Shown here in pieces: positions 1-9,130 of a DNA stretch of 64,000 nucleotides; position 1 is the stretch's first letter; each line of letters begins with the position of its first letter. Location: positions 186,001 through 250,000 of the forward strand of contig NZ_JAQZSM010000001.1 in NCBI RefSeq assembly GCF_028745735.1, in the 5' to 3' direction. The DNA is from Roseinatronobacter alkalisoli. GTDB taxonomy: Bacteria; Pseudomonadota; Alphaproteobacteria; Rhodobacterales; Rhodobacteraceae. Below the pieces are notes generated by a model. The model did not search any database and was not told where the DNA came from. It saw only the letters and a program-made list of their open reading frames with translations. Made by a program: the position numbers and the translations under genes.

Positions 1-813
1 TTTGCCGCGTTTCAGGCAACGCGGACACTGGATGATCTGATTGTGTTGCTGGCGACAGGGGTTCTGGGCGTTTACATGCGCCGCTTTGGCTGGCCGCGGC
101 CCGCGCTGCTGATCGGCTTTGTGCTGGCGACGCAGGCGGAAACCTATCTGTATCAGGCCGTGCAGTTCTATGGTTGGGAATTCCTGACACGTACCGGCGT
201 CATGATCATCATCGGCATTACCGCCGGATCGATCTGGCTGGGTCTGCGCGCGCGTGTGTCAGAGGTAAGCCCCGAAGAAGTGCTTGCACTGGAAGCGCGC
301 GACGACGCTGCTGGCCCGGCGGCGAATATACGCGCCCGCGCGCCGCAGATCCTGTTTGCCTTGGTTGCTTTCGGGTTTTTCAGTGTCGGGCTGCATGACG
401 CGCTTCAGCATAGTTTTCTGGGGCAGGTCTTTCCATTGATCATGGCCAGTGCGGGTATGCTGTTCACGGCGCTGGTGCTGGGGTTTCTGATCCTTGGCAA
501 ACCCAATCATGCTGTTTCAAGTGATACCGAGCATCTGGAGCGCCCGGATGCCGAACCCCAGCGTTCAACCCTTGGCGCACTCGCATGGGTGGCGTCGCTG
601 GTCGCGCTGACGGCGGTGGTTGGTTTCGTCACCGCATTGGTGGTCTTTTTCGTGGCGTTCCTGAAGATACGGGCGCGGGCAAGCTGGCTGATGACGCTAC
701 TTCTGACCGGGGGCTGCACGGGTTTTGTGCTGACACTCGCTTCGGCGCTGAACATGCGCTTTCCGGGCGGGCTGCTGCAGGAACTGTACCGCCTGCCCTG
801 GCCCTTCAGTTAA
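1..813 (+). CDS. Fused TctA-TctB permease of a tripartite tricarboxylate transporter (3' part only)
   Basis: The reading frame is open from base 1, so the gene starts before the window; about 270 residues are visible. The first ~80 (DDLIVLLATGVLG, then MRRFGWPRPALLIGF) look like the C-terminal end of a TctA large permease. After a polar linker come four hydrophobic segments (about 115-135, 143-166, 190-220 and 228-249) ending in LNMRFPGGLL, which resembles the small TctB subunit. I read this as a TctA-TctB fusion in the inner membrane, importing a di- or tricarboxylate with a periplasmic TctC protein that is not in view. The tautomerase gene starts 6 bases after its stop, so the two are probably cotranscribed. 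The family call is good; the fusion is judged by eye. Confidence 0.8.
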   Translation, partial: FAAFQATRTLDDLIVLLATGVLGVYMRRFGWPRPALLIGFVLATQAETYLYQAVQFYGWEFLTRTGVMIIIGITAGSIWLGLRARVSEVSPEEVLALEARDDAAGPAANIRARAPQILFALVAFGFFSVGLHDALQHSFLGQVFPLIMASAGMLFTALVLGFLILGKPNHAVSSDTEHLERPDAEPQRSTLGALAWVASLVALTAVVGFVTALVVFFVAFLKIRARASWLMTLLLTGGCTGFVLTLASALNMRFPGGLLQELYRLPWPFS

Positions 814-819
814 GGAACG

Positions 820-1920
820 ATGCCCATGCAAACTGCAATCCCTTTCATCTTTATGCGCGGCGGCACATCAAGGGGACCGTATTTCCATGCCGAAGATTTG
901 CCGACAGACCGCGAAACCCTGTCGAATGTCCTGCGTGCCGCAATCGGGTCCGGGCATCCGCTGAATATCGACGGTCTGGGCGGCGGGGCAAGCGTGACCA
1001 CCAAAGTCGCGATCCTGTCACGCTCGGATTGCGACGGGGTGGATGTCGAATACTTGTTTGCGCAGGTTGACCCAATGCGTGAGGCTGTGGATTTCCGCCC
1101 CACCTGTGGCAATATCATGGCCGGTGTCGGCGCGGCGGCACTTGAGATGGGACTTGTTCCTGTGCAGCGCGGCGAGACCCGCTTGCGCATCCACGCGGTC
1201 AATACGGGTGCGCTGGTCGATACCGTGGTGCAAACCCCGGACGGGCAGGTGTGCTATGACGGCACGCAAACCATTGCCGGGGTGCCGGGCAGTGCCGCGC
1301 CTGTGACCTTGGGTTTCACAGGGATTGTGGGAACAGCGACCGGGGCCATGTTGCCCACAGGGAAGGCGCGCGATGTGATTGACGGTGTTGCGGTTACCTT
1401 GATCGACGTTGCCATGCCGATGATGATCCTGCGCGCTGCCGATATCGGATTACGCGGCGACGAATCCCGCGAGGAGATCGACGAGAATACGCAATTGCTG
1501 GCGCGCATCGAGTCGATGCGCTGCAAGGCAGGCCCGATGATGGGGTTGGGCGCGGATGTTTCCGGTGCGGTCATGCCCAAGGTCGGGCTGATTTCGGCGC
1601 CTGTGACGGGCGGGGCGTTGCGTGCGCGTTACCTGACACCTTGGACCTGTCATCCCAGCATGGCGGTTACTGGCGCGCAATGCCTGTCGGCTTGCGCTGT
1701 GCTGCCGGGGTCAGTGGCAGAAGGGTTGGCAGTGACACCTGCCACTGGCCCTGCAGAACTGCTTATTGAACATCCGATCGGGTTTTTGCCCGTTGTGCTG
1801 GATTTCGTCCGCGATTCCGATGGTGCCACGATCCATAGCGCGGGTATCGTGCGCACTGCGCGGATGCTGGCACGGGGGCATGTAATGGTCCCGAGCGCGG
1901 TCTGGGACGGCGCGCGCTGA
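820..1920 (+). CDS. galD: 4-oxalomesaconate tautomerase-like PrpF family protein
   Basis: A 366-residue PrpF-family protein (two diaminopimelate-epimerase-like lobes). The N-terminus FMRGGTSRGPYF and the block DGLGGGASVTTKVA are typical of GalD/LigU, which isomerise 4-oxalomesaconate in gallate and protocatechuate 4,5-cleavage pathways. Lys62 (TTKVA) and Cys96 (RPTCGN) are 34 residues apart, the same spacing as the catalytic Lys66/Cys100 I recall for LigU. The alternative PrpF role, 2-methylaconitate isomerisation, is less likely because there is no methylcitrate gene nearby and a PDC lactonase, whose product is 4-oxalomesaconate, lies 2 kb away. It follows the transporter gene by 6 bases. 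Confidence 0.8.
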   Translation: MPMQTAIPFIFMRGGTSRGPYFHAEDLPTDRETLSNVLRAAIGSGHPLNIDGLGGGASVTTKVAILSRSDCDGVDVEYLFAQVDPMREAVDFRPTCGNIMAGVGAAALEMGLVPVQRGETRLRIHAVNTGALVDTVVQTPDGQVCYDGTQTIAGVPGSAAPVTLGFTGIVGTATGAMLPTGKARDVIDGVAVTLIDVAMPMMILRAADIGLRGDESREEIDENTQLLARIESMRCKAGPMMGLGADVSGAVMPKVGLISAPVTGGALRARYLTPWTCHPSMAVTGAQCLSACAVLPGSVAEGLAVTPATGPAELLIEHPIGFLPVVLDFVRDSDGATIHSAGIVRTARMLARGHVMVPSAVWDGAR

Positions 1921-2031
1921 CACGCGGGTATCGGCGGGCGCTATATTTTTTCCCCGAAGCATTTTCAGCTTGTTGCCGTTGCTGCAACCCTGTCGAAACG
2001 ACCGGCCCGTACGTTTGCACCGCGTCGCCCC

Positions 2032-2736
2032 CTATATGGGGACATCGCCGCCGTCTTCATGTGCGTGGCTGTCCAGAAAGCCAGCCTCGCGCAATTGTCG
2101 CAGGCGGATGCGATGGGCCGCTTCGATATGGGTGCGCATTGCGGCTTCGGCTGCGGTGCCATCGCGGTTTTGCAGGGCGCGCAGCAATTCTTCATGTTCC
2201 TGTGCGCCGGTCGCTATGCGGGCGGGGTCGAACAGGGTGGACCGGCCAAGGATCAGTAAAGTGCGCCCCATAGCGGCGATGGCGCGTTGGAGGTAGCGGT
2301 TCTTGGCCGTGTTGACCAGCGCAGCATGAAACAGCCGGTTCAGGCGGACAATATCTTCCGGGTTGGTGCTGGCGGTCATTTCGGCATTGATCCCGGCCAG
2401 TTCACGCAGTTCCAGTTCCGAGGCAGCGCGCGCGGCCAGACGTGCCGCAGTGCCTTCCAGCACGGCGCGCATTTCATATAGCTCCATCACTTCGGCATAG
2501 CTCAGCCGCCGCAGGGTCGCACCCTGACGGGGCAGGTGTTCCACCAACCCGTCAGCTTCCAGCCGACGGATGGCTTCGCGCACGGGCGTACGTGAAATGC
2601 CCAGCCGCGCCGCAAGATCAACTTCCCGCAGCCGCGCACCGGGAGGGAGGGTGCCATGGCGGATTTCATTGAGCAACCGGTCATAGGCGTTTTGGCCCTG
2701 CGACAAGTCGGAGGCAGACTCGGGTCGGTTGCGCAT
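2032..2736 (-). CDS. GntR family transcriptional regulator with FCD domain
   Basis: A 234-residue regulator. The winged helix-turn-helix lies at about 17-76 (RLGISRTPVREAIRRLEADG). The all-helical FCD ligand domain follows and keeps its metal-binding pattern: an Asp and His around DIVRLNRLFH, then His in QEHEELL and MRTHIEAAH. FCD regulators usually sense small carboxylates. The frame is open to an ATG at 2781, but that start has no ribosome site and would place coding sequence over an inverted repeat. The ATG at 2736 has AGGA just upstream and is preferred. The gene is divergent from the AbrB-family gene and convergent with the tautomerase gene, so it plausibly controls the transporter half of the island. 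Confidence 0.87.
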   Translation of the reverse strand: MRNRPESASDLSQGQNAYDRLLNEIRHGTLPPGARLREVDLAARLGISRTPVREAIRRLEADGLVEHLPRQGATLRRLSYAEVMELYEMRAVLEGTAARLAARAASELELRELAGINAEMTASTNPEDIVRLNRLFHAALVNTAKNRYLQRAIAAMGRTLLILGRSTLFDPARIATGAQEHEELLRALQNRDGTAAEAAMRTHIEAAHRIRLRQLREAGFLDSHAHEDGGDVPI

Positions 2737-2771
2737 GTCATCCTGTGCGGCTACGGGTAGTTGATTGCCTA

Positions 2772-2801
2772 TTGCATACATATGGATGCAAGCGTATGCA
2801 A
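2772..2801. promoter_or_regulatory. Candidate GntR operator
   Basis: TTGCATAC (2772-2779) and GTATGCAA (2794-2801) are exact reverse complements. A third half-site, ATGCAA, lies between them (2786-2791), so TTGCAT-8-ATGCAA is also present. The site lies in the short gap between the divergent GntR and AbrB-family genes, where an autoregulated FCD regulator would bind. Assignment to this regulator is by position only. Confidence 0.5.
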
Positions 2802-2814
2802 TAGCTAATCAGCA

Positions 2815-3858
2815 ATGAGTCACACCATGTTTACCCGCACACGCCTGCAGACATTTGCCATAGCCCTTTCCGGGGTCGGGGTTTTTCATCTGTTGGGGTT
2901 GCCGCTGCCGTTTCTGTTCGGGCCGATGTTTGCCTGTCTGCTCGCGGCGCTTCTGGGGGTGCAGATGCAGGGGGCCGGGCAGGTCTCGGTTGGCGCGCGC
3001 ACAATATTGGGGGTCGCGGTCGGCGCGTCCGTCACGCCCGCGCTGTTGGGACAGGTGCCGCTGATGGCGGTGACACTGGCGCTGATCCCGGCCTATGTGG
3101 CGGTGATTGGTCTGGTGGGGGTGCCGTTCTTTCACCGTGTCTGTGGGTTTGACCGGATCACCAGCTATTATGCCGCCATGCCCGGCGGGTTTCAGGACAT
3201 GGTCATCTTCGGGCAGGAAGCGGGGGGCAATGCCCGTGCGCTGTCGTTGATTCATGCGACGCGCGTGCTGATCATCGTGACGCTGGTGCCGTTCCTTCTG
3301 ACGGGGCCGTTCGGGGTCAGCCTTGATCACCCCATCGGTGCGCCGGCAAGCGAACTGCCCTTGCATGAAATGGCGATCATGGTGGCAATTGCACTGATCG
3401 GCTGGAAAGGTGGCGAACGTATCGGCCTGTTCGGTGCCTCTATTCTGGGGCCGCTGCTTCTGGCGATGGTGCTGTCACTGGGTGACGTGATCCACCACCG
3501 CCCGCCCGCCGAGGCGATTCTGGTCGCGCAGTTTTTCATCGGCATGGGAATCGGAATGTATTATCGCGGTGTGACGGTCGCGGAACTGCGCCATGACGTG
3601 GCATCGGGTGCTGCCTTCGCGGTTGTTCTGGCCGGGCTGGCGGCAGGATTTACCCTGCTTGCCCATCATATTGGTGACGCGCCGCAGGTCGAGGCGTTCC
3701 TGTCCTTCAGCCCCGGCGGACAGGCCGAAATGACCGTTCTGGCCATCGTCGCCGGGGCGGATCTGGGCTTTGTTGTTATTCACCACCTTATGCGGATGAT
3801 CCTTGTCATAACTGGTGCGCCGATTATCGCGCGGCTGTGGTCGCAACGTCGGGAATGA
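2815..3858 (+). CDS. AbrB family (PF05145) integral membrane protein
   Basis: A 347-residue protein made almost entirely of hydrophobic segments, with the repeated glycine/proline-rich motif of the membrane AbrB duplication family (LPLPFLFGPMF early and SFSPGGQAEMTVLA late; YYAAMPGGFQDM in the middle). Databases often label such proteins as transcriptional regulators or ammonia monooxygenase, but nothing here resembles DNA binding; a transport role is more likely. Family members often sit beside GntR regulators and TTT transporters, as here. No clear ribosome site was found; ATG 2815 is used and ATG 2827 is an alternative. Substrate unknown. Confidence 0.78.
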   Translation: MSHTMFTRTRLQTFAIALSGVGVFHLLGLPLPFLFGPMFACLLAALLGVQMQGAGQVSVGARTILGVAVGASVTPALLGQVPLMAVTLALIPAYVAVIGLVGVPFFHRVCGFDRITSYYAAMPGGFQDMVIFGQEAGGNARALSLIHATRVLIIVTLVPFLLTGPFGVSLDHPIGAPASELPLHEMAIMVAIALIGWKGGERIGLFGASILGPLLLAMVLSLGDVIHHRPPAEAILVAQFFIGMGIGMYYRGVTVAELRHDVASGAAFAVVLAGLAAGFTLLAHHIGDAPQVEAFLSFSPGGQAEMTVLAIVAGADLGFVVIHHLMRMILVITGAPIIARLWSQRRE

Positions 3859-3898
3859 CATTCGGCCGGAATTCAGGATCACGCGCAGGGCGTTCGGG

Positions 3899-4768
3899 TC
3901 AGTTCTGCCAGTAAAGCCGTGTCGGGTTGGTGACCGTCAGCTTTTCAAGCAGGGTCTGGCCGGGCGCTATATCTGCAAGCAGATCGACCAGCGCGCCGTC
4001 ATCGGGCATGTCTTTCCTGATGTTCGGGTGCGGCCAGTCCGTGCCCCACAAGACCTGATCAGTGAAACGCGCCACCAGATCTGCGGCAATCGGCACTGCG
4101 TCTGCATAGGGTGGGCCTTCTCGGGTGATACGTTCAGCCCCGCAGACCTTGACCCAGAACCGGTCATCGCGCAGCAGGTCCACAAGCATTTCATAGGCAG
4201 GCTGATGAATCCCTTTGGACGCATCAACACGGCCCATATGATCAATCACCATCGGCACCGGCAGCGATTTCAGCACAGGTGCCAGCGTTTCCAGACGGTC
4301 CGCATCGAAATGCACCACGGCATGCCAGCCCAGACGCGAAATGCGCTGCGCAAGGTCGCGCACAGCATCCACATCCGCATCTTTGCCCAGATGCGACACG
4401 AAATTGAATCTGATCCCGCGCACCCCGCCTGCATGCAGCCGGTCCAGTTCCGCATCCGATATGTCGCGGCGCACCATTGCCACGCCGCGGCAAGACCCGT
4501 TGGATTTTGCGATTGCGTCCAGCATGGCCGCGTTGTCGGTGCCATGGCAACTGGCCTGAACCAGAACCGTGCGGCTGATGCCCAGCCTTGAATGCAGCGC
4601 GGCCAGCGTTTCCCAAGGGGCGTCTACCGGGGTATAGGTGCGTTCGGGGGCGAATGGAAAATCCTTTGCCGGGCCGAAAACATGGCAATGCGCATCGCAG
4701 GCCCCGTCCGGCAGGCGTAGTTTCGGGACGGAAGGATTGGGATGAAACGGTAGGTTCTGTTCTGTCAT
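3899..4768 (-). CDS. ligI: 2-pyrone-4,6-dicarboxylate lactonase (amidohydrolase family)
   Basis: A 289-residue TIM-barrel amidohydrolase that should hydrolyse the pyrone ring of PDC to 4-oxalomesaconate in the protocatechuate 4,5-cleavage route. It follows the known LigI pattern throughout: DAHCHVFGP (His27, His29), VQASCHGTDNAAMLDAIA, GIRFNF, VIDHMGR, and WGTDWPHPN with the probable catalytic Asp244. I chose the ATG at 4768: it gives a normal LigI N-terminus and forms a 4-base ATGA overlap with the upstream TRAP permease stop. The frame continues further upstream inside the permease gene, which is a shadow. It is last in the tetR-TAXI-permease-lactonase operon. A related pyrone or lactone substrate cannot be excluded. 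Confidence 0.88.
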   Translation of the reverse strand: MTEQNLPFHPNPSVPKLRLPDGACDAHCHVFGPAKDFPFAPERTYTPVDAPWETLAALHSRLGISRTVLVQASCHGTDNAAMLDAIAKSNGSCRGVAMVRRDISDAELDRLHAGGVRGIRFNFVSHLGKDADVDAVRDLAQRISRLGWHAVVHFDADRLETLAPVLKSLPVPMVIDHMGRVDASKGIHQPAYEMLVDLLRDDRFWVKVCGAERITREGPPYADAVPIAADLVARFTDQVLWGTDWPHPNIRKDMPDDGALVDLLADIAPGQTLLEKLTVTNPTRLYWQN

Positions 4769-6714
4769 GTGTCTGCTCTGGATTGGGTGAAAGGGGCCAG
4801 CCGTGCCTTTCGGACAAGCAACGCAATGACGACCATAAGGCCACCCATGCGTGCGATCAGTGTCAAAGGGTCGGTGGAACTGACTGGCGAAGGCCACAGG
4901 ATCAGGCAGGATGCTGCGGCAAGCAGCCAGCGTTCAGATGCGGGCATTGGTGACTGGAACCAGCCCGCAAAAGCGATGGTCAGCCCGACAAGGCCGACCG
5001 CAGCCAGCACAACCGACAAGGCAATTTCTGTGCCAGTGCCGATCATCAGCAGGCCGGGCATGGATGCAAACAGGAACGGCACCAGCAGCTTGACAAATCC
5101 CAGCCTGACAGATTCGACAGCGGTTCGATTTGGCTCGCCGCCAGAAATGGATGCAGCAGCATATGCCGCCAACGCGACCGGTGGCGTGATCGCTGATGCA
5201 AGGCCATAGTAGAAAATGAACATATGGGCGACCACCGGTTCCAGTCCGGAGCGCGTCAACGCGGGACCGACCAGAACCGCAAGCAGCAGATAGGCCGCCG
5301 ATGTTGGCAGGCCCATGCCGAGCACGAATGACACCACAGCGGTCAGCATCAGCAAGGCAAGCAGATGTCCGCCCGCGATATTCACGATCATGCCTGACAT
5401 CATCAGACCCAGCCCGGTCAGGTTCAGCACACCAATCACGATGCCTGCAGACGCCACGGCGACAACAATGGGCATTGTCGTGATCAGTGTGTCCCGGCAG
5501 ACGACAGCCAGTGTCACCAGCCCGACGCGCGTTTCCTTGCGCCAGGGAGAGATGACAAGCCCGACGCCAATGCACAGCACTGCCGCTTGTGTGGGCGAAT
5601 ACCCGTTGGCCAGAAAGAGAATGAGGGAGATCAGTGGCAAAAGCAGATAGCCACGGTAGACCACAGTTTCCTTCAATAGCTGAAATCCCGCCTGCGGATC
5701 CCGATCCAGCCCCAGACGCCCTGCTTCCAGCCAGACAGCGGTCATCAGCGCCAGAACATATAACAGGCCCGGCACCAGCGCGGCCAGCGCGATCGTGGCA
5801 TAGGGCACCTGAATGATCTCTGCCATCAGAAAGGCGGCAGCCCCCATTACGGGCGGCAATATCTGGCCTGCGGAACTTGCCGCAGCCTCGATCGCGCCCG
5901 CAAGGTTCTTTGAATACCCCGCGCGTTTCATCAGCGGTATGGTAAAGGTTCCGGTCGTCACGACATTCGCAACTGCGCTGCCGTTGATCGACCCGAGCAT
6001 TGTGGATGACAGCGCCGCTGTCAGCCCCGGCCCGCCGCGCATCCGCCCGGTCAGGCCGCGTGCCAGATCGACAAACACTTCGCCGGTGCCGATTTTCATC
6101 AGCAAACCGCCCATCAGCGCGAACAGGAATATATATTCGACCGCGACACCCATCGGCAGGCTGAAAATGCCCTCGGTTGACAGCATCAGCATTGATGCCA
6201 GCCGCCGCACGGAATACCCCCGATGCCCGTACTGGCCGGGTATCATGTCCCCGAGCATCGCATAGGCCAGCGCCACGGCCACCAATACCAGCAATGCCAG
6301 CCCGACACTCCGCCAGATCAGGGTAATAAGCGCCGCCATCAGACCAACAAAGACATATACATCAAACGGGGTGGCCATGCCGCCACGCATGACGATGGGC
6401 AGATAGTTCGCTTCTATATTGATGCCCGGATACAGCGCCAATGGCACCAGCGCATAGAAAAACGCCCGCGCCCAGACCGGCCCCGCCTGCAAGCCCAGCA
6501 GAAGCAAGCCACCCGCAGCGACCATGGAAAAGAACACGGATCGAAGAATCAGGGCGGTGATCAGCCCGAAATATGCACCCCACAACACCAGCGCTGTGGT
6601 GGCAATCGCCAGCCCGGTTACCAGCAGCGATACCAGCACCACCTCCGTTCTGGATCGGTCGGGCACCGCAAGGCATAGCGGGTTCAGCCAACGAAAGATC
6701 ACCGCCCTGATCAC
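4765..6714 (-). CDS. TRAP transporter fused permease (DctQM type, TAXI partner)
   Basis: About 649 residues with many transmembrane helices: an N-terminal four-helix DctQ-like part joined to a DctM-like part. Conserved TRAP motifs are present (GSINGSAVANVVTTGTFTIP, AASSAGQILPPVMGAAAF, LGMGLPTSAAYLL, YYGLASAITPPVALAAYAA). Fused permeases of this kind work with TAXI binding proteins, and one is encoded immediately upstream. A GTG start at 6714, one base after the TAXI stop and with GGGGA 8 bases upstream, is preferred over ATG 6750, which has no ribosome site and would overlap the TAXI gene. It should drive sodium- or proton-coupled uptake of an organic acid, probably the substrate handled by the lactonase. 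Confidence 0.9.
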   Translation of the reverse strand: MIRAVIFRWLNPLCLAVPDRSRTEVVLVSLLVTGLAIATTALVLWGAYFGLITALILRSVFFSMVAAGGLLLLGLQAGPVWARAFFYALVPLALYPGINIEANYLPIVMRGGMATPFDVYVFVGLMAALITLIWRSVGLALLVLVAVALAYAMLGDMIPGQYGHRGYSVRRLASMLMLSTEGIFSLPMGVAVEYIFLFALMGGLLMKIGTGEVFVDLARGLTGRMRGGPGLTAALSSTMLGSINGSAVANVVTTGTFTIPLMKRAGYSKNLAGAIEAAASSAGQILPPVMGAAAFLMAEIIQVPYATIALAALVPGLLYVLALMTAVWLEAGRLGLDRDPQAGFQLLKETVVYRGYLLLPLISLILFLANGYSPTQAAVLCIGVGLVISPWRKETRVGLVTLAVVCRDTLITTMPIVVAVASAGIVIGVLNLTGLGLMMSGMIVNIAGGHLLALLMLTAVVSFVLGMGLPTSAAYLLLAVLVGPALTRSGLEPVVAHMFIFYYGLASAITPPVALAAYAAASISGGEPNRTAVESVRLGFVKLLVPFLFASMPGLLMIGTGTEIALSVVLAAVGLVGLTIAFAGWFQSPMPASERWLLAAASCLILWPSPVSSTDPLTLIARMGGLMVVIALLVRKARLAPFTQSRADT

Positions 6715-6715
6715 A

Positions 6716-7642
6716 TCAGTTCCCCGCGAAATAGGCCGCTGCACCTGCATGCAGGTCGATGGGTGTGTTTGGCGCGGTTTCGTGCAGGATCAGCCGCGCA
6801 AGCGGATGAATTTCCCCCAACGTATCCAGATTGTCGAACAATGCCGCCGTCATCGCCTGCACGAATTCATCCGGCGCATCAGCATGCACGAACAACACTG
6901 CGGGATCATTGATAACCAACGTGGGGTCCGTCACGCCACCATATGTATTCGCCGGAATTTCATACAGTTGGTAGAAGGGGTATTCTTCCAGCAACCCGGC
7001 AACGCTTTCAGCGTCAACCGGCAACAAAACCATATCTTCGCGCGCATCAAGATCGATCAGCGCCGCCACTGGCGCACCCGCCAGCACAACCGCTGCATCA
7101 ACTGATCCGTTGACCAGCGCGTTCACCCCTTCGGCATAGGACAGGAATTGCGCATTTTCCGGGCTGAAGGCCCCGTAACTTTCAAGAAGCCGCTGCGCCA
7201 GCACCGCGGCATTGGAACCGGGCGGGCCAAGGCTGACGGGACGCCCGGCAAGGTCTTCGAAACTGGTGATCCCTGTGCGTGCCGTTGTGGCCACTTGCAT
7301 GACAGCCGGATAGAGATAGGCCAATGCCGCAACAGGATGCGGGTCGCCATCGAATGCACCCGTGCCGCTGGCAGCTTCATAAAGGGTGGATGAGGATGAA
7401 AACCCAAGTTCAAGCTCACCCAGCGCGGTGCGCCGGATATTTTCGATGGACGCGCCGGTGACTTCGGCGCGTGCGGTGGTGTCGGGCATATGTTCGGTGA
7501 TCAGTTCCGCCATTCCGGCGCCGATCACATAGAACAGCCCGCCGGTCCCGCCGGTCCCGATCGATATGCGTTCCTGCGCGGTCGCAGGCATGGCAAATGC
7601 CATGGCCACGGCTGCGGCAATCAGGCTTCCTGTCAGTTTCAT
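6716..7642 (-). CDS. TAXI family TRAP transporter solute-binding protein
   Basis: A 308-residue periplasmic binding protein. Residues 1-22 form a signal peptide (MKLTGSLIAAAVAMAFAMPA, cleaved after ATA). The TAXI signature begins the mature protein (ISIGTGGTGGLFYVIGAGMAE), followed by GELELGFSSSSTLYEA, DLAGRPVSLGPPGSNAA and the C-terminal HPLA. TAXI proteins deliver organic acids or related solutes to a fused TRAP permease, here encoded directly downstream. It lies 18 bases after the TetR gene on the same strand, so regulator, binding protein, permease and lactonase form one operon. Confidence 0.92.
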   Translation of the reverse strand: MKLTGSLIAAAVAMAFAMPATAQERISIGTGGTGGLFYVIGAGMAELITEHMPDTTARAEVTGASIENIRRTALGELELGFSSSSTLYEAASGTGAFDGDPHPVAALAYLYPAVMQVATTARTGITSFEDLAGRPVSLGPPGSNAAVLAQRLLESYGAFSPENAQFLSYAEGVNALVNGSVDAAVVLAGAPVAALIDLDAREDMVLLPVDAESVAGLLEEYPFYQLYEIPANTYGGVTDPTLVINDPAVLFVHADAPDEFVQAMTAALFDNLDTLGEIHPLARLILHETAPNTPIDLHAGAAAYFAGN

Positions 7643-7660
7643 TAGTCCCTCCCTTGGGTT

Positions 7661-8338
7661 TCAGTCTGCGGTCGAGTAATCCGCAACATGCTCGCGCGAC
7701 AGCGCGCGAAAACTTGCATGCGCAGCGTCCACCAGTTCGCGGATCGCTGTTTCGTGGTCGGTTCCGCTGGTCGCGCCATCCGACAACCGTTCAATACGTT
7801 CGGGGTTGATCAGCGTGTAATACAGCGCGCCAAGCAGGAATTGTGACCGCCACACAATCTGGCGTCGGTCTGCGCCCGGCAAGCATTCTGCTATGGCATC
7901 AAGAAAACTGCGCGTTACCCCATCGAAAGCCGCAGCGATGATGCGTTTTGCCTCCGGGTCGCCCTCTGCTGACAGGACGGCACGCATCCGGGTGAACCGC
8001 GCGCCGCCGCCCGCCGCCCCATTCGCGGCAAATGAAAATGTCGGAAGCAGATAGGCCCGCAGGATGGCGCGCAATCGCGCAGAAAGGTCGGCAATCTGGC
8101 GGGCTTCGCCCAGAAGTTCCAGCCGCCGGGCATTCATGGGGATGGTATGAATGTCATAAATCGTCTGCAGCAGGTCCAGCTTTCCCTCATAGTGATAGGA
8201 CACGCTGGACACCACGACACCTGCTTCGCGCGCGATTTCCCGCAGCGACACCGCCGCAAACCCACGTTCGGAAAACAGGCGTTCCGCAGCCTCGCGGATT
8301 GCGGTCGCGGTGTCGTTCTGGCTTTCGGATTTTTTCAT
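7661..8338 (-). CDS. TetR/AcrR family transcriptional regulator
   Basis: A 225-residue regulator with an N-terminal helix-turn-helix at about 12-58 (AERLFSERGFAAVSLREIA, then VVVSSVSYHY) and a helical ligand domain with the ARFTRMRAVLSAEGD stretch seen in several TetR C-terminal families. It is the first gene of the TAXI-TRAP-lactonase operon and divergent from the dienelactone hydrolase. Two matching inverted repeats lie in the 132-base gap between them. The likely role is to repress both directions until a pathway compound binds. The ligand is unknown. Confidence 0.9.
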   Translation of the reverse strand: MKKSESQNDTATAIREAAERLFSERGFAAVSLREIAREAGVVVSSVSYHYEGKLDLLQTIYDIHTIPMNARRLELLGEARQIADLSARLRAILRAYLLPTFSFAANGAAGGGARFTRMRAVLSAEGDPEAKRIIAAAFDGVTRSFLDAIAECLPGADRRQIVWRSQFLLGALYYTLINPERIERLSDGATSGTDHETAIRELVDAAHASFRALSREHVADYSTAD

Positions 8339-8372
8339 TGCCGTCCTCCTGAGTATGGATTTTGCATAGATT

Positions 8373-8430
8373 TGGACAAGTGTCCATTAATTTTATTGCA
8401 TATGATTTATTATTTTGAACACTTGTCCAA
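8373..8430. promoter_or_regulatory. Paired TetR operator candidates in a divergent promoter
   Basis: Two inverted repeats of the same type sit between the tetR gene and the dienelactone hydrolase gene. Site 1 is TGGACAAGTGTCCA (8373-8386); site 2 is TTGAACACTTGTCCAA (8415-8430). The 14-base string ATTTGGACAAGTGT around site 1 reappears exactly, reverse-complemented, around site 2. Each site has 7-base arms around a 2-base centre, a common TetR operator layout. One site near each promoter would allow joint control. Confidence 0.65.
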
Positions 8431-8470
8431 ATACGATATACACGTGACCATCAAGACAGGAGATTCCGAT

Positions 8471-9130
8471 ATGTTCAAACCCCTGACAGCAGATGACGGC
8501 CATCGTTTTGAATGCTGGATGCAGCCCGCAGAAGGATCACCGCAAGGCGGGCTGGTCATTCTGCAGGAAATATTTGGTGTGACCGAACAATTGCGCGGCG
8601 TCGCCAGGGACTATGCGGCAAAAGGGTTCAACATCGCCATTCCCGCCCTGTTTGACCGCCAGCAGCGCGGCGCAATCATCCCGTTTGACAATGCCGCGCC
8701 GGGCCGGGACATGATGCTGGCCGCAAAGCCGGATGACACAATGCGCGACATCGCCGCCGCCGTGAACGCGCTTGCGCAAACAAGCAACAAGGTCGCGGTT
8801 TTGGGGTTTTGCTGGGGCGGTGGGCTGGCAATCCGTGCGGCGCAGGTGCTGGATATTGCCTGTGCTGTCCGCTTTTACGGGACACGTTTGCCGCAATATA
8901 TGGACATGGCGCTGGGCAAACCCGTTCAGGGCCATTTCGGCACGCGTGACGACCATGTTCCGCCGGAAATGCTGGATCAAGCGCGCGCGGCGTTCCCGAC
9001 GCTGGAAATTCACATGTATGACTGTGGGCACGCATTCGCCAATGATGCGCGCCCGGATGCCTATGACGCCGAAGCGGCGACGCTGGCGCATGCCCGCGCG
9101 CAGGCATTTCTGTCTACGCATCTGGGTTAG
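8471..9130 (+). CDS. Dienelactone hydrolase family protein
   Basis: A 219-residue alpha/beta hydrolase of the carboxymethylenebutenolidase type. The catalytic triad is visible: Cys114 in GFCWGG, Asp160 in HFGTRD, His187 in YDCGHAFAN; Glu33 in LQEIFGV is the conserved helper. The ATG at 8471 is chosen because AGGAGA lies just upstream and the protein then begins as family members do. The frame runs back to 8147, but that extension would cross the tetR gene and both operator sites. Divergent from the tetR-TAXI-TRAP-lactonase operon, it may open a lactone related to the imported compound. The substrate is not shown by sequence. Confidence 0.88.
   Translation: MFKPLTADDGHRFECWMQPAEGSPQGGLVILQEIFGVTEQLRGVARDYAAKGFNIAIPALFDRQQRGAIIPFDNAAPGRDMMLAAKPDDTMRDIAAAVNALAQTSNKVAVLGFCWGGGLAIRAAQVLDIACAVRFYGTRLPQYMDMALGKPVQGHFGTRDDHVPPEMLDQARAAFPTLEIHMYDCGHAFANDARPDAYDAEAATLAHARAQAFLSTHLG

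Follow-up and report, generated by a model that had tools for sequence, protein, structure and literature searches.

Positions 1-9130 of a 64,000-nucleotide window (the whole stretch of DNA analysed, C1:186001-250000 of the 4.84 Mb draft genome of Roseinatronobacter alkalisoli) encode a TRAP importer of the TAXI type directly beside a LigI-like lactonase. This TAXI-LigI unit is real and recurrent. We consider it fairly probable that the part from 3899 to 9130 is a scavenging unit for 2-pyrone-4,6-dicarboxylate (PDC), which arises in the catabolism of lignin aromatics and is in demand as a monomer for polymers.

We propose the following pathway. The TAXI solute-binding protein (SBP) would catch PDC in the periplasm and the fused TRAP permease would bring it in, driven by an ion gradient. 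LigI would open the lactone to 4-oxalomesaconate (OMA). A LigU-type tautomerase, a GalB-like hydratase and a LigK aldolase, encoded on contig C38, would then finish the conversion to pyruvate and oxaloacetate. Bound at two palindromes, a TetR repressor would switch the importer operon and a dienelactone hydrolase (DLH) together. On this view the transporter family is a known one with a new predicted ligand, and the pathway is a shortened version of a known one. A PDC-specific TAXI system, if true, would extend the short list of ligands known for this family, offer a transport part for PDC biosensors or PDC-polymer breakdown, and imply PDC exchange between environmental bacteria.

A recurrent pairing of importer and lactonase

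The comparison covered 120 LigI loci: the 80 best-ranked of 589 relatives, 20 of the 21 best remaining matches in the family and 20 selected by LigC status (8 lacking it, 12 carrying it), and its class sizes are not population rates. With L135 and L148 dropped (their LigI is identical to that of L057 and L103) and the window excluded, 118 different loci were counted. A TAXI permease gene lies beside ligI on the same strand in 16 of them, with match edges at most 113 bp apart. LigB or LigC is present in none of these 16 loci, against 70 of the 102 others (Fisher 1e-7; Fisher values here ignore relatedness). Among loci with flanks of 5 kb or more, the counts are 0/13 and 52/74.

The gene order of the window, TetR-SBP-permease-LigI, is found in L052 (Stappia), in L053 and L055 (Hyphomicrobiales/Rhizobiales) and in L132 and L133, each with a TetR homologue (59-70%) at the same place, and without TetR in L144. 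In L133 the unit is followed, with no change of strand, by genes for GalB, LigK and a LigU-type tautomerase; L052 and L144 have these genes nearby. Nine further loci (L059, L060, L061, L067, L134, L137, L139, L140 and L240) form type B, ordered LigI-permease-SBP and mostly accompanied by DLH; GalB-LigK-tautomerase is present in six. The binding proteins of the two types share only 23-24% identity, and 10 of the 15 pocket positions compared are different, so that at least two separate recruitments of TAXI to LigI are probable. Sphaerochaeta L105 shows a third arrangement and may represent a third recruitment.

Altogether, 10/16 TAXI-LigI loci hold GalB, LigK and the gal-type tautomerase. LigK with the tautomerase occurs in 10/16 of these loci and in 56/102 of the other LigI loci; because many loci without TAXI hold these genes too, the linkage is a mark of the shared pathway, not of TAXI.

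In the window, DLH diverges from the series TetR-TAXI binding protein-TAXI permease-LigI, which runs from 8338 down to 3899. The gap between TetR and the binding protein is 18 bp, the binding protein and permease frames overlap by up to 35 bp (a figure that depends on the uncertain permease start), and the start ATG of the lactonase overlaps the stop of the permease (ATGA). The four genes are therefore probably read as one transcript.

Table 1 Features of the segment 1-9130, in window coordinates
Feature	Module	Position	Strand	Basis
3' part of fused TctA-TctB permease	1	1..813	+	TctA/TctB Pfam; one open frame across window edge
PrpF-family isomerase, clade linked to tripartite tricarboxylate transporters (TTT), YbhH side	1	820..1920	+	NF033377, tree, nearest structure YbhH 6OTV
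GntR/FCD regulator	1	2032..2781	-	Pfam FCD and GntR; homologues near several TTT-isomerase loci
AbrB-family (PF05145) membrane protein	1	2815..3858	+	Pfam, 252.1 bits; homologues near many TTT-isomerase loci
LigI-like lactonase (Amidohydro_2)	2	3899..4768 (frame open to 4897)	-	phmmer, conserved residues
Fused TRAP permease, TAXI type	2	4765..6750	-	TIGR02123, 517 bits (cut-off 320.65)
TAXI solute-binding protein	2	6716..7642	-	TIGR02122, 245.6 bits (cut-off 84.35)
TetR regulator	2	7661..8338	-	Pfam TetR_N and TetR_C_30; 18 bp before TAXI gene
Predicted operator 1, TTTGGACAAGTGTCCA		8371..8386	+	Palindrome
Predicted operator 2, TTTGGACAAGTGTTCA		8416..8431	-	Near copy of operator 1 in opposite sense
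Dienelactone hydrolase-family protein, divergent from TetR (less sure)	2	8471..9130	+	Pfam DLH, 116.6 bits

Both predicted operators sit in the 132-bp gap between TetR and DLH, and they are the only exact matches to the operator pattern genome-wide. With up to two mismatches, four operator-like sites appear, against two for a reversed-pattern control; the other two lie on C69 (one mismatch, before a gene judged AraC-like by eye) and on C76 (two mismatches). Similar palindromes precede the homologous TetR genes in L132, L052, L053 and L055, and a weaker one in L133. We infer that TetR controls both the importer operon and DLH through the two palindromes. Among the TAXI-LigI loci, 8/16 have a DLH copy of at least 55%, each of them a type-B locus, against 0/102 other LigI loci; none was found in the six window-type loci. 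The role of DLH in the unit is putative.

Lactonase, predicted ligand and the supply of PDC

Among all solved structures, the top phmmer match of the window lactonase is LigI of Sphingobium SYK-6 (4D8L, E 3.4e-87), and the next different protein follows at 3.7e-36. The two enzymes share family and length. The window protein keeps His31, His33, His180 and Asp248 (SYK-6 numbering), which we take to be the catalytic residues, together with Arg124 and Arg217; Asp248 is the residue changed in the LigI entries 4DI8/4DIA. In an alignment of 120 LigI proteins, Asp29, His31, His33, His79, Arg124, His180, Arg217 and Asp248 are invariant. The window LigI is predicted to open PDC to 4-oxalomesaconate. Unlike its SYK-6 counterpart, its gene stands beside a TAXI importer and not ligABC.

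Two other assignments were rejected. The best NCBIfam name for the lactonase, 4-sulfomuconolactone hydrolase, scored 257.2 bits against a cut-off of 500. Riboflavin catabolism was discarded as a home for LigI-like genes: in the available text on that pathway, its pyrone hydrolase is LumW, and LigI is named in the references only.

The importer comprises both parts of a TAXI-TRAP system, a TAXI solute-binding protein and a fused DctQ-DctM permease. The residues that form the glutamate pocket of TAXI proteins were taken from the available text of PMC11574862. Compared with the glutamate proteins VcGluP (which structure 8S4J appears to be, judging by its residues) and Thermus 1US4/1US5, the window protein belongs to the same family and retains Ser75, but has Ser for Gln93, Ala for Glu125 and Phe for Tyr45, as in all nine window-type sequences compared. 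It likely binds a non-amino ligand. Known TAXI ligands in the available texts are L-glutamate, 2-oxoglutarate, 2-hydroxyglutarate and o-phthalate (PMC12344293, PMC13040137, PMC6362003).

The o-phthalate TAXI-TRAP of denitrifiers (PMC13040137) and the proposed OpaL/OpaN of Pseudomonas PTH10 resemble the window unit, as far as their available descriptions go: each pairs a TAXI binding protein with a single fused permease, next to genes for the catabolism of a planar dicarboxylate. In this comparison by description, the window unit differs in being linked to a pyrone lactonase and, in relatives, to OMA enzymes. Import of PDC or a near analogue by the TAXI-LigI unit is likely. No PDC importer is named in the available text of the literature searched (PMC13406360 and PMC10510227 included), a search with most subscription journals outside its scope. 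Window-type TAXI proteins are rare, with matches at E 1e-60 in 6/290 family genomes, the source genome included. A second TAXI-amidohydrolase pair exists in the source genome: on C76 (L021, 7121-11103), a TAXI-like binding protein and a fused permease, recognised by similarity, lie directly beside an Amidohydro_2 gene.

The remaining pathway genes are found elsewhere in the source genome. On C38, a GalB-like (PIG-L) gene, LigK (375.2 bits, cut-off 304.5) and the LigU-type tautomerase stand in a row; on C44 lie a LigJ-like (Amidohydro_2) gene and another gene for LigK (331.6 bits, same cut-off). The GalB- and LigJ-like genes beside LigK are named by fold family and context, with no NCBIfam hydratase match. 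The predicted LigI, tautomerase and LigK functions, and the putative hydratase, are those of the lig/pmd operons for protocatechuate 4,5-cleavage; unlike in those operons, LigA, LigB and LigC are missing beside the window unit, and no orthologue of LigC, the 4-carboxy-2-hydroxymuconate-6-semialdehyde (CHMS) dehydrogenase, was found in the genome. A first-pass annotation of the segment had stated that the ring-cleavage genes, ligJ and ligK are not there, which is true locally; elsewhere the genome has two LigK, a LigJ-like gene and two LigAB-like pairs. As a separate observation, the C44 row (L017, 8017-11872) consists of a cytochrome P450 (Pfam), the LigJ-like amidohydrolase, a binding-protein-like gene (by eye) and LigK, and could constitute a second OMA-type route.

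If the unit imports PDC, genomes that hold it would not be expected to need to make PDC. No LigC orthologue was found in the 16 TAXI-LigI genomes, where two weak matches reached 27% and 35% identity, nor in Amorphus (L054), which has LigI without TAXI. The query for this search was identified as PmdC-like by 9AZO (E 1.1e-136); both controls were positive, one of them (G120) being the genome the query came from. A LigAB-like pair is absent from 12/16 TAXI-LigI genomes and present in G000, G226, G299 and G300, with G256 outside this test. Six of the 12 (G047, G149, G133, G295, G296 and G297) gave no PF02900 match at E 0.001. LigK is present in 14/16; it was missed in G133, whose genome is 90% complete, and in G302, in which a contig end interrupts the gene. 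The failure to find LigC in any of these genomes, and the lack of LigAB in most, fits the scavenging of a ready-made pyrone, and the comparison suggests that such bacteria take up PDC from outside rather than make it themselves.

The same division is seen at the level of the family, sampled with 295 genomes for LigI and 290 for LigC. LigI was matched at E 1e-40 in 54/295 genomes. At E 1e-85 or better, a line placed after seeing a gap in the match list, 39 genomes remain: 26 have LigC, nine have TAXI beside LigI, and four have only a divergent LigI. No genome is both LigC-bearing and TAXI-beside-LigI, G042 being judged on a 3.9 kb locus; for G256, G205, G199, G239 and G192, the absence of LigC is read from the 290-genome scan, among the matches listed.

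Observations that weigh against PDC import

A number of observations weigh against the scavenging of PDC by this unit, and three rival explanations were considered. The source genome holds two LigAB-like pairs, on C24 and C41, the former adjoining an alpha/beta hydrolase and a LigM-like O-demethylase (635.8 bits, cut-off 580), and some PDC could arise inside the cell. The TAXI system might then import an aromatic precursor (vanillate, syringate, 3-O-methylgallate, gallate or phthalate), with LigI handling PDC from internal ring cleavage. LigAB of the source type is also present in G226, G299 and G300, and a LigM homologue (81%) lies in the type-B locus L140. In the available text of PMC8091115, cleavage of 3-O-methylgallate by LigAB leads to PDC in vitro without LigC, and a TAXI-TRAP system imports o-phthalate in denitrifiers (PMC13040137). 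We nevertheless regard this explanation as unlikely: it has to face the 12 genomes without a LigAB-like pair, the six without a PF02900 match, and the 16 loci themselves, in all of which the importer adjoins LigI and LigB is absent.

The source LigAB-like pairs (L018 on C24, 7750-11140; L019 on C41, 7928-9870) each lie beside an alpha/beta hydrolase, called by Pfam on C24 and by eye on C41. The related pairs of G226, G299 and G300 are about 70% alike, while LigC-linked LigB is only about 45% alike. Perhaps the source pairs serve 3-O-methylgallate.

It is mainly the lactonase that calls for caution over the exact substrate. The window LigI carries His/His in place of SYK-6 Arg130/Tyr156, residues that presumably bind the substrate. 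Among the 120 LigI proteins, 84 have Arg/Tyr (RY), 35 His/His (HH) and one His/Tyr. This pair divides the maximum-likelihood tree into two strongly supported clades (both 100/99), one of 36 rows with the window (35 HH and the single His/Tyr) and one of 84 rows with SYK-6 LigI. Part of the His/His clade adjoins an SDR and an AhpD-like gene, which looks like another lactone pathway, and the window group stands next to this group in the tree, on an open branch (84/88).

The importer and lactonase could thus handle a lactone acid other than PDC, the His/His enzyme being shifted in substrate. We find this rather improbable. HH-type LigI also occurs in LigC loci (L066, L099 and L118), where the product of LigC is PDC, and with GalB-LigK-tautomerase in L052, L054 and L133. 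In addition, the window-type TAXI system of G149 (55%) stands with a LigI of the RY type, like that of SYK-6, an arrangement that speaks for one and the same imported compound reaching both LigI types.

Further points concern the importer and its regulation. LigI does not adjoin the closest TAXI orthologue (G222, 77%), nor a 48% relative in G042, which lies near a gene judged by eye to be similar to a dehydroshikimate dehydratase; both genomes have LigC and LigAB. In G222, DLH adjoins the TAXI pair. No such operator was found before the C38 pathway genes (L016), and a search of the source-genome loci L002 and L016-L022, in L022 with the stricter of two patterns only, found none. Outside the TAXI loci, Roseomonas mucosa has a TctC binding protein gene beside ligI with LigAB-like genes nearby; ring cleavage can thus be present even where an importer adjoins LigI.

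The last rival takes the whole 9 kb as one functional island, in which the TTT and the isomerase serve the TAXI-LigI pathway. TctAB of at least 45% identity occurs in 3/16 TAXI-LigI loci (L055, L059 and L061) and in 0/102 others. The isomerase is found in 6/9 TAXI-LigI family genomes against 65/251 without LigI (p 0.014, kinship uncorrected; the 251 assumes the same sample in both scans). In G222, an AbrB gene (62%) is found at 5 kb from the TAXI pair, and in the isomerase-bearing locus L231, which shows no LigI, genes for GalB, LigK and a gal-type tautomerase occur at a distance of about 6 kb. Against this, the isomerase itself is present in only 1/16 TAXI-LigI loci, and over all LigI genomes it stays at background (10/39 vs 65/251). 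LigI was found in 0/18 neighbourhoods of the isomerase module, three of which are contigs under 12 kb. We judge a single island very doubtful, and rejected it for the isomerase, whose module mostly travels alone.

The first-pass annotation had nonetheless described such an island, built around a lactonase and a tautomerase and scavenging a ready-made pyrone. All the genes it named are present by family scans and open frames. Its idea of scavenging retains support in the repeated coupling of TAXI to a PDC-lactonase-like enzyme in genomes that gave no LigC orthologue and mostly lack LigAB, and TAXI and lactonase do recur together when the set is sought elsewhere. The isomerase and the TTT, on the other hand, belong to a neighbouring system: lactonase and isomerase are not kept together across genomes, the very outcome that the annotation had named as speaking against it.

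The neighbouring module and other importers beside ligI

The genes of 1-9130 and the upstream DNA fall into two modules, module 1 reaching from upstream to 3858 and module 2 from 3899 to 9130. Module 1 consists of a histidine kinase/response regulator pair on one strand, tctC, fused tctAB and the PrpF-family isomerase on the other, a GntR regulator and an AbrB-family protein. The tctAB gene starts about 1.2 kb before the window. By Pfam, TctA scores 400.6 bits over the whole frame (cut-off 28.9), TctB 29.4 bits for the portion inside the window and 28.3 for the complete fused frame (cut-off 29.1), and TctC, upstream of base 1, 28.6 bits (cut-off 27). The module therefore has the TctA, TctB and TctC parts of a tripartite tricarboxylate transporter. 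Of the three genes that the first-pass annotation suggested seeking upstream, tctC is there, and neither ligJ nor ligK was found in the 20 kb before the window or in 1-9130.

That annotation also called the isomerase a tautomerase. The gene exists and the label is borderline: it scores 439.2 bits against the NF033377 (4-oxalomesaconate tautomerase) cut-off of 440, whereas the C38 copy reaches 518.7. In a tree of 104 proteins, the window isomerase falls in a clade of 31 rows (support 1.0) whose sister is E. coli YbhH (0.991), and LigU and the gal-linked copies, including that of C38, branch apart. The C38 tautomerase is 66% identical to LigU and the window isomerase 43%. The latter retains the Lys and Cys that are changed in the LigU entries 6P3H and 6P3K. 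Orthology to LigU was rejected on the score below cut-off and the tree position outside the LigU/gal-linked part. YbhH (6OTV) is 47% identical to the window isomerase, which groups with the TTT-linked PrpF isomerases and whose gene follows tctAB; YbhH was compared by protein sequence alone.

The window isomerase was matched in 75/290 family genomes at E 1e-100, mostly without LigI. In the 18 fetched module-1 loci it accompanies tctC-tctAB, often with AbrB, GntR or a histidine kinase. On this sequence evidence, the TTT-isomerase-AbrB-GntR module is a separate putative carboxylate uptake system and a neighbour of the TAXI-LigI unit. A genomic island with a tRNA was rejected, with no tRNA found in 17 kb and no clear composition step. 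A plasmid origin was rejected as well, the window TAXI protein having no match at E 1e-40 among 72,556 plasmid records.

Importers other than TAXI also lie beside ligI. A DctA-type symporter is encoded 131-182 bp from ligI in five loci only (L056, L058, L073, L076 and L094). In five others (L064, L071, L077, L079 and L084), the gene for a TctC binding protein lies at 26-89 bp from ligI. These identities come from Pfam for L056 and L094 (SDF) and for L064 (TctC), and from similarity to L056 and L064 for the rest. Neither LigB nor LigC was seen in these ten loci. With TAXI, three unrelated kinds of importer are thus found beside ligI.

A broader reading is plausible, if more tentative than the role proposed for the window unit. 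PDC may be a shared good, with a guild that has neither ring cleavage nor LigC living on the PDC of others, and with unrelated importers attached to ligI several times. The importers of this guild would be two or three TAXI-TRAP lineages, the DctA type (Burkholderiaceae, Brenneria) and TctC (Roseomonas-like). According to the available texts, 3-O-methylgallate cleavage gives PDC without LigC in vitro (PMC8091115), and N. aromaticivorans engineered for PDC production yields PDC outside the cell (PMC8091115; also PMC12993862).

In Brenneria roseae (L094, 8107-12894), genes for a tautomerase, GalB, LigI, DctA and an RraA/LigK-like protein form a run, a complete-looking candidate operon for PDC uptake and breakdown with a different importer.

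The divergent LigI group comprises L241-L247 and L112 (G205, G199, G239, G192, G133, G149, G162 and Flavimaribacter), as well as L265 in the UR115 plasmid. Its genes mostly lie beside an SDR, an AhpD/carboxymuconolactone-decarboxylase-like gene (by eye; the single copy scanned gave no Pfam match) and DctPQM-TRAP genes, and the group possibly marks an undescribed lactone pathway.

Two gene associations recur around these loci. TctC-TctAB of the window type lies near a thiamine diphosphate (ThDP) enzyme at three TAXI-LigI loci (L055, 236-5323; L059, 3097-4767; L061, 15569-20466), the enzyme of L059 being acetolactate synthase-like with no shown family above its cut-off. A DUF1932/NAD-binding protein recurs beside galB, ligK, ligAB or ligI in L059, L249, L257, L258, L254, L064, L084 and L267.

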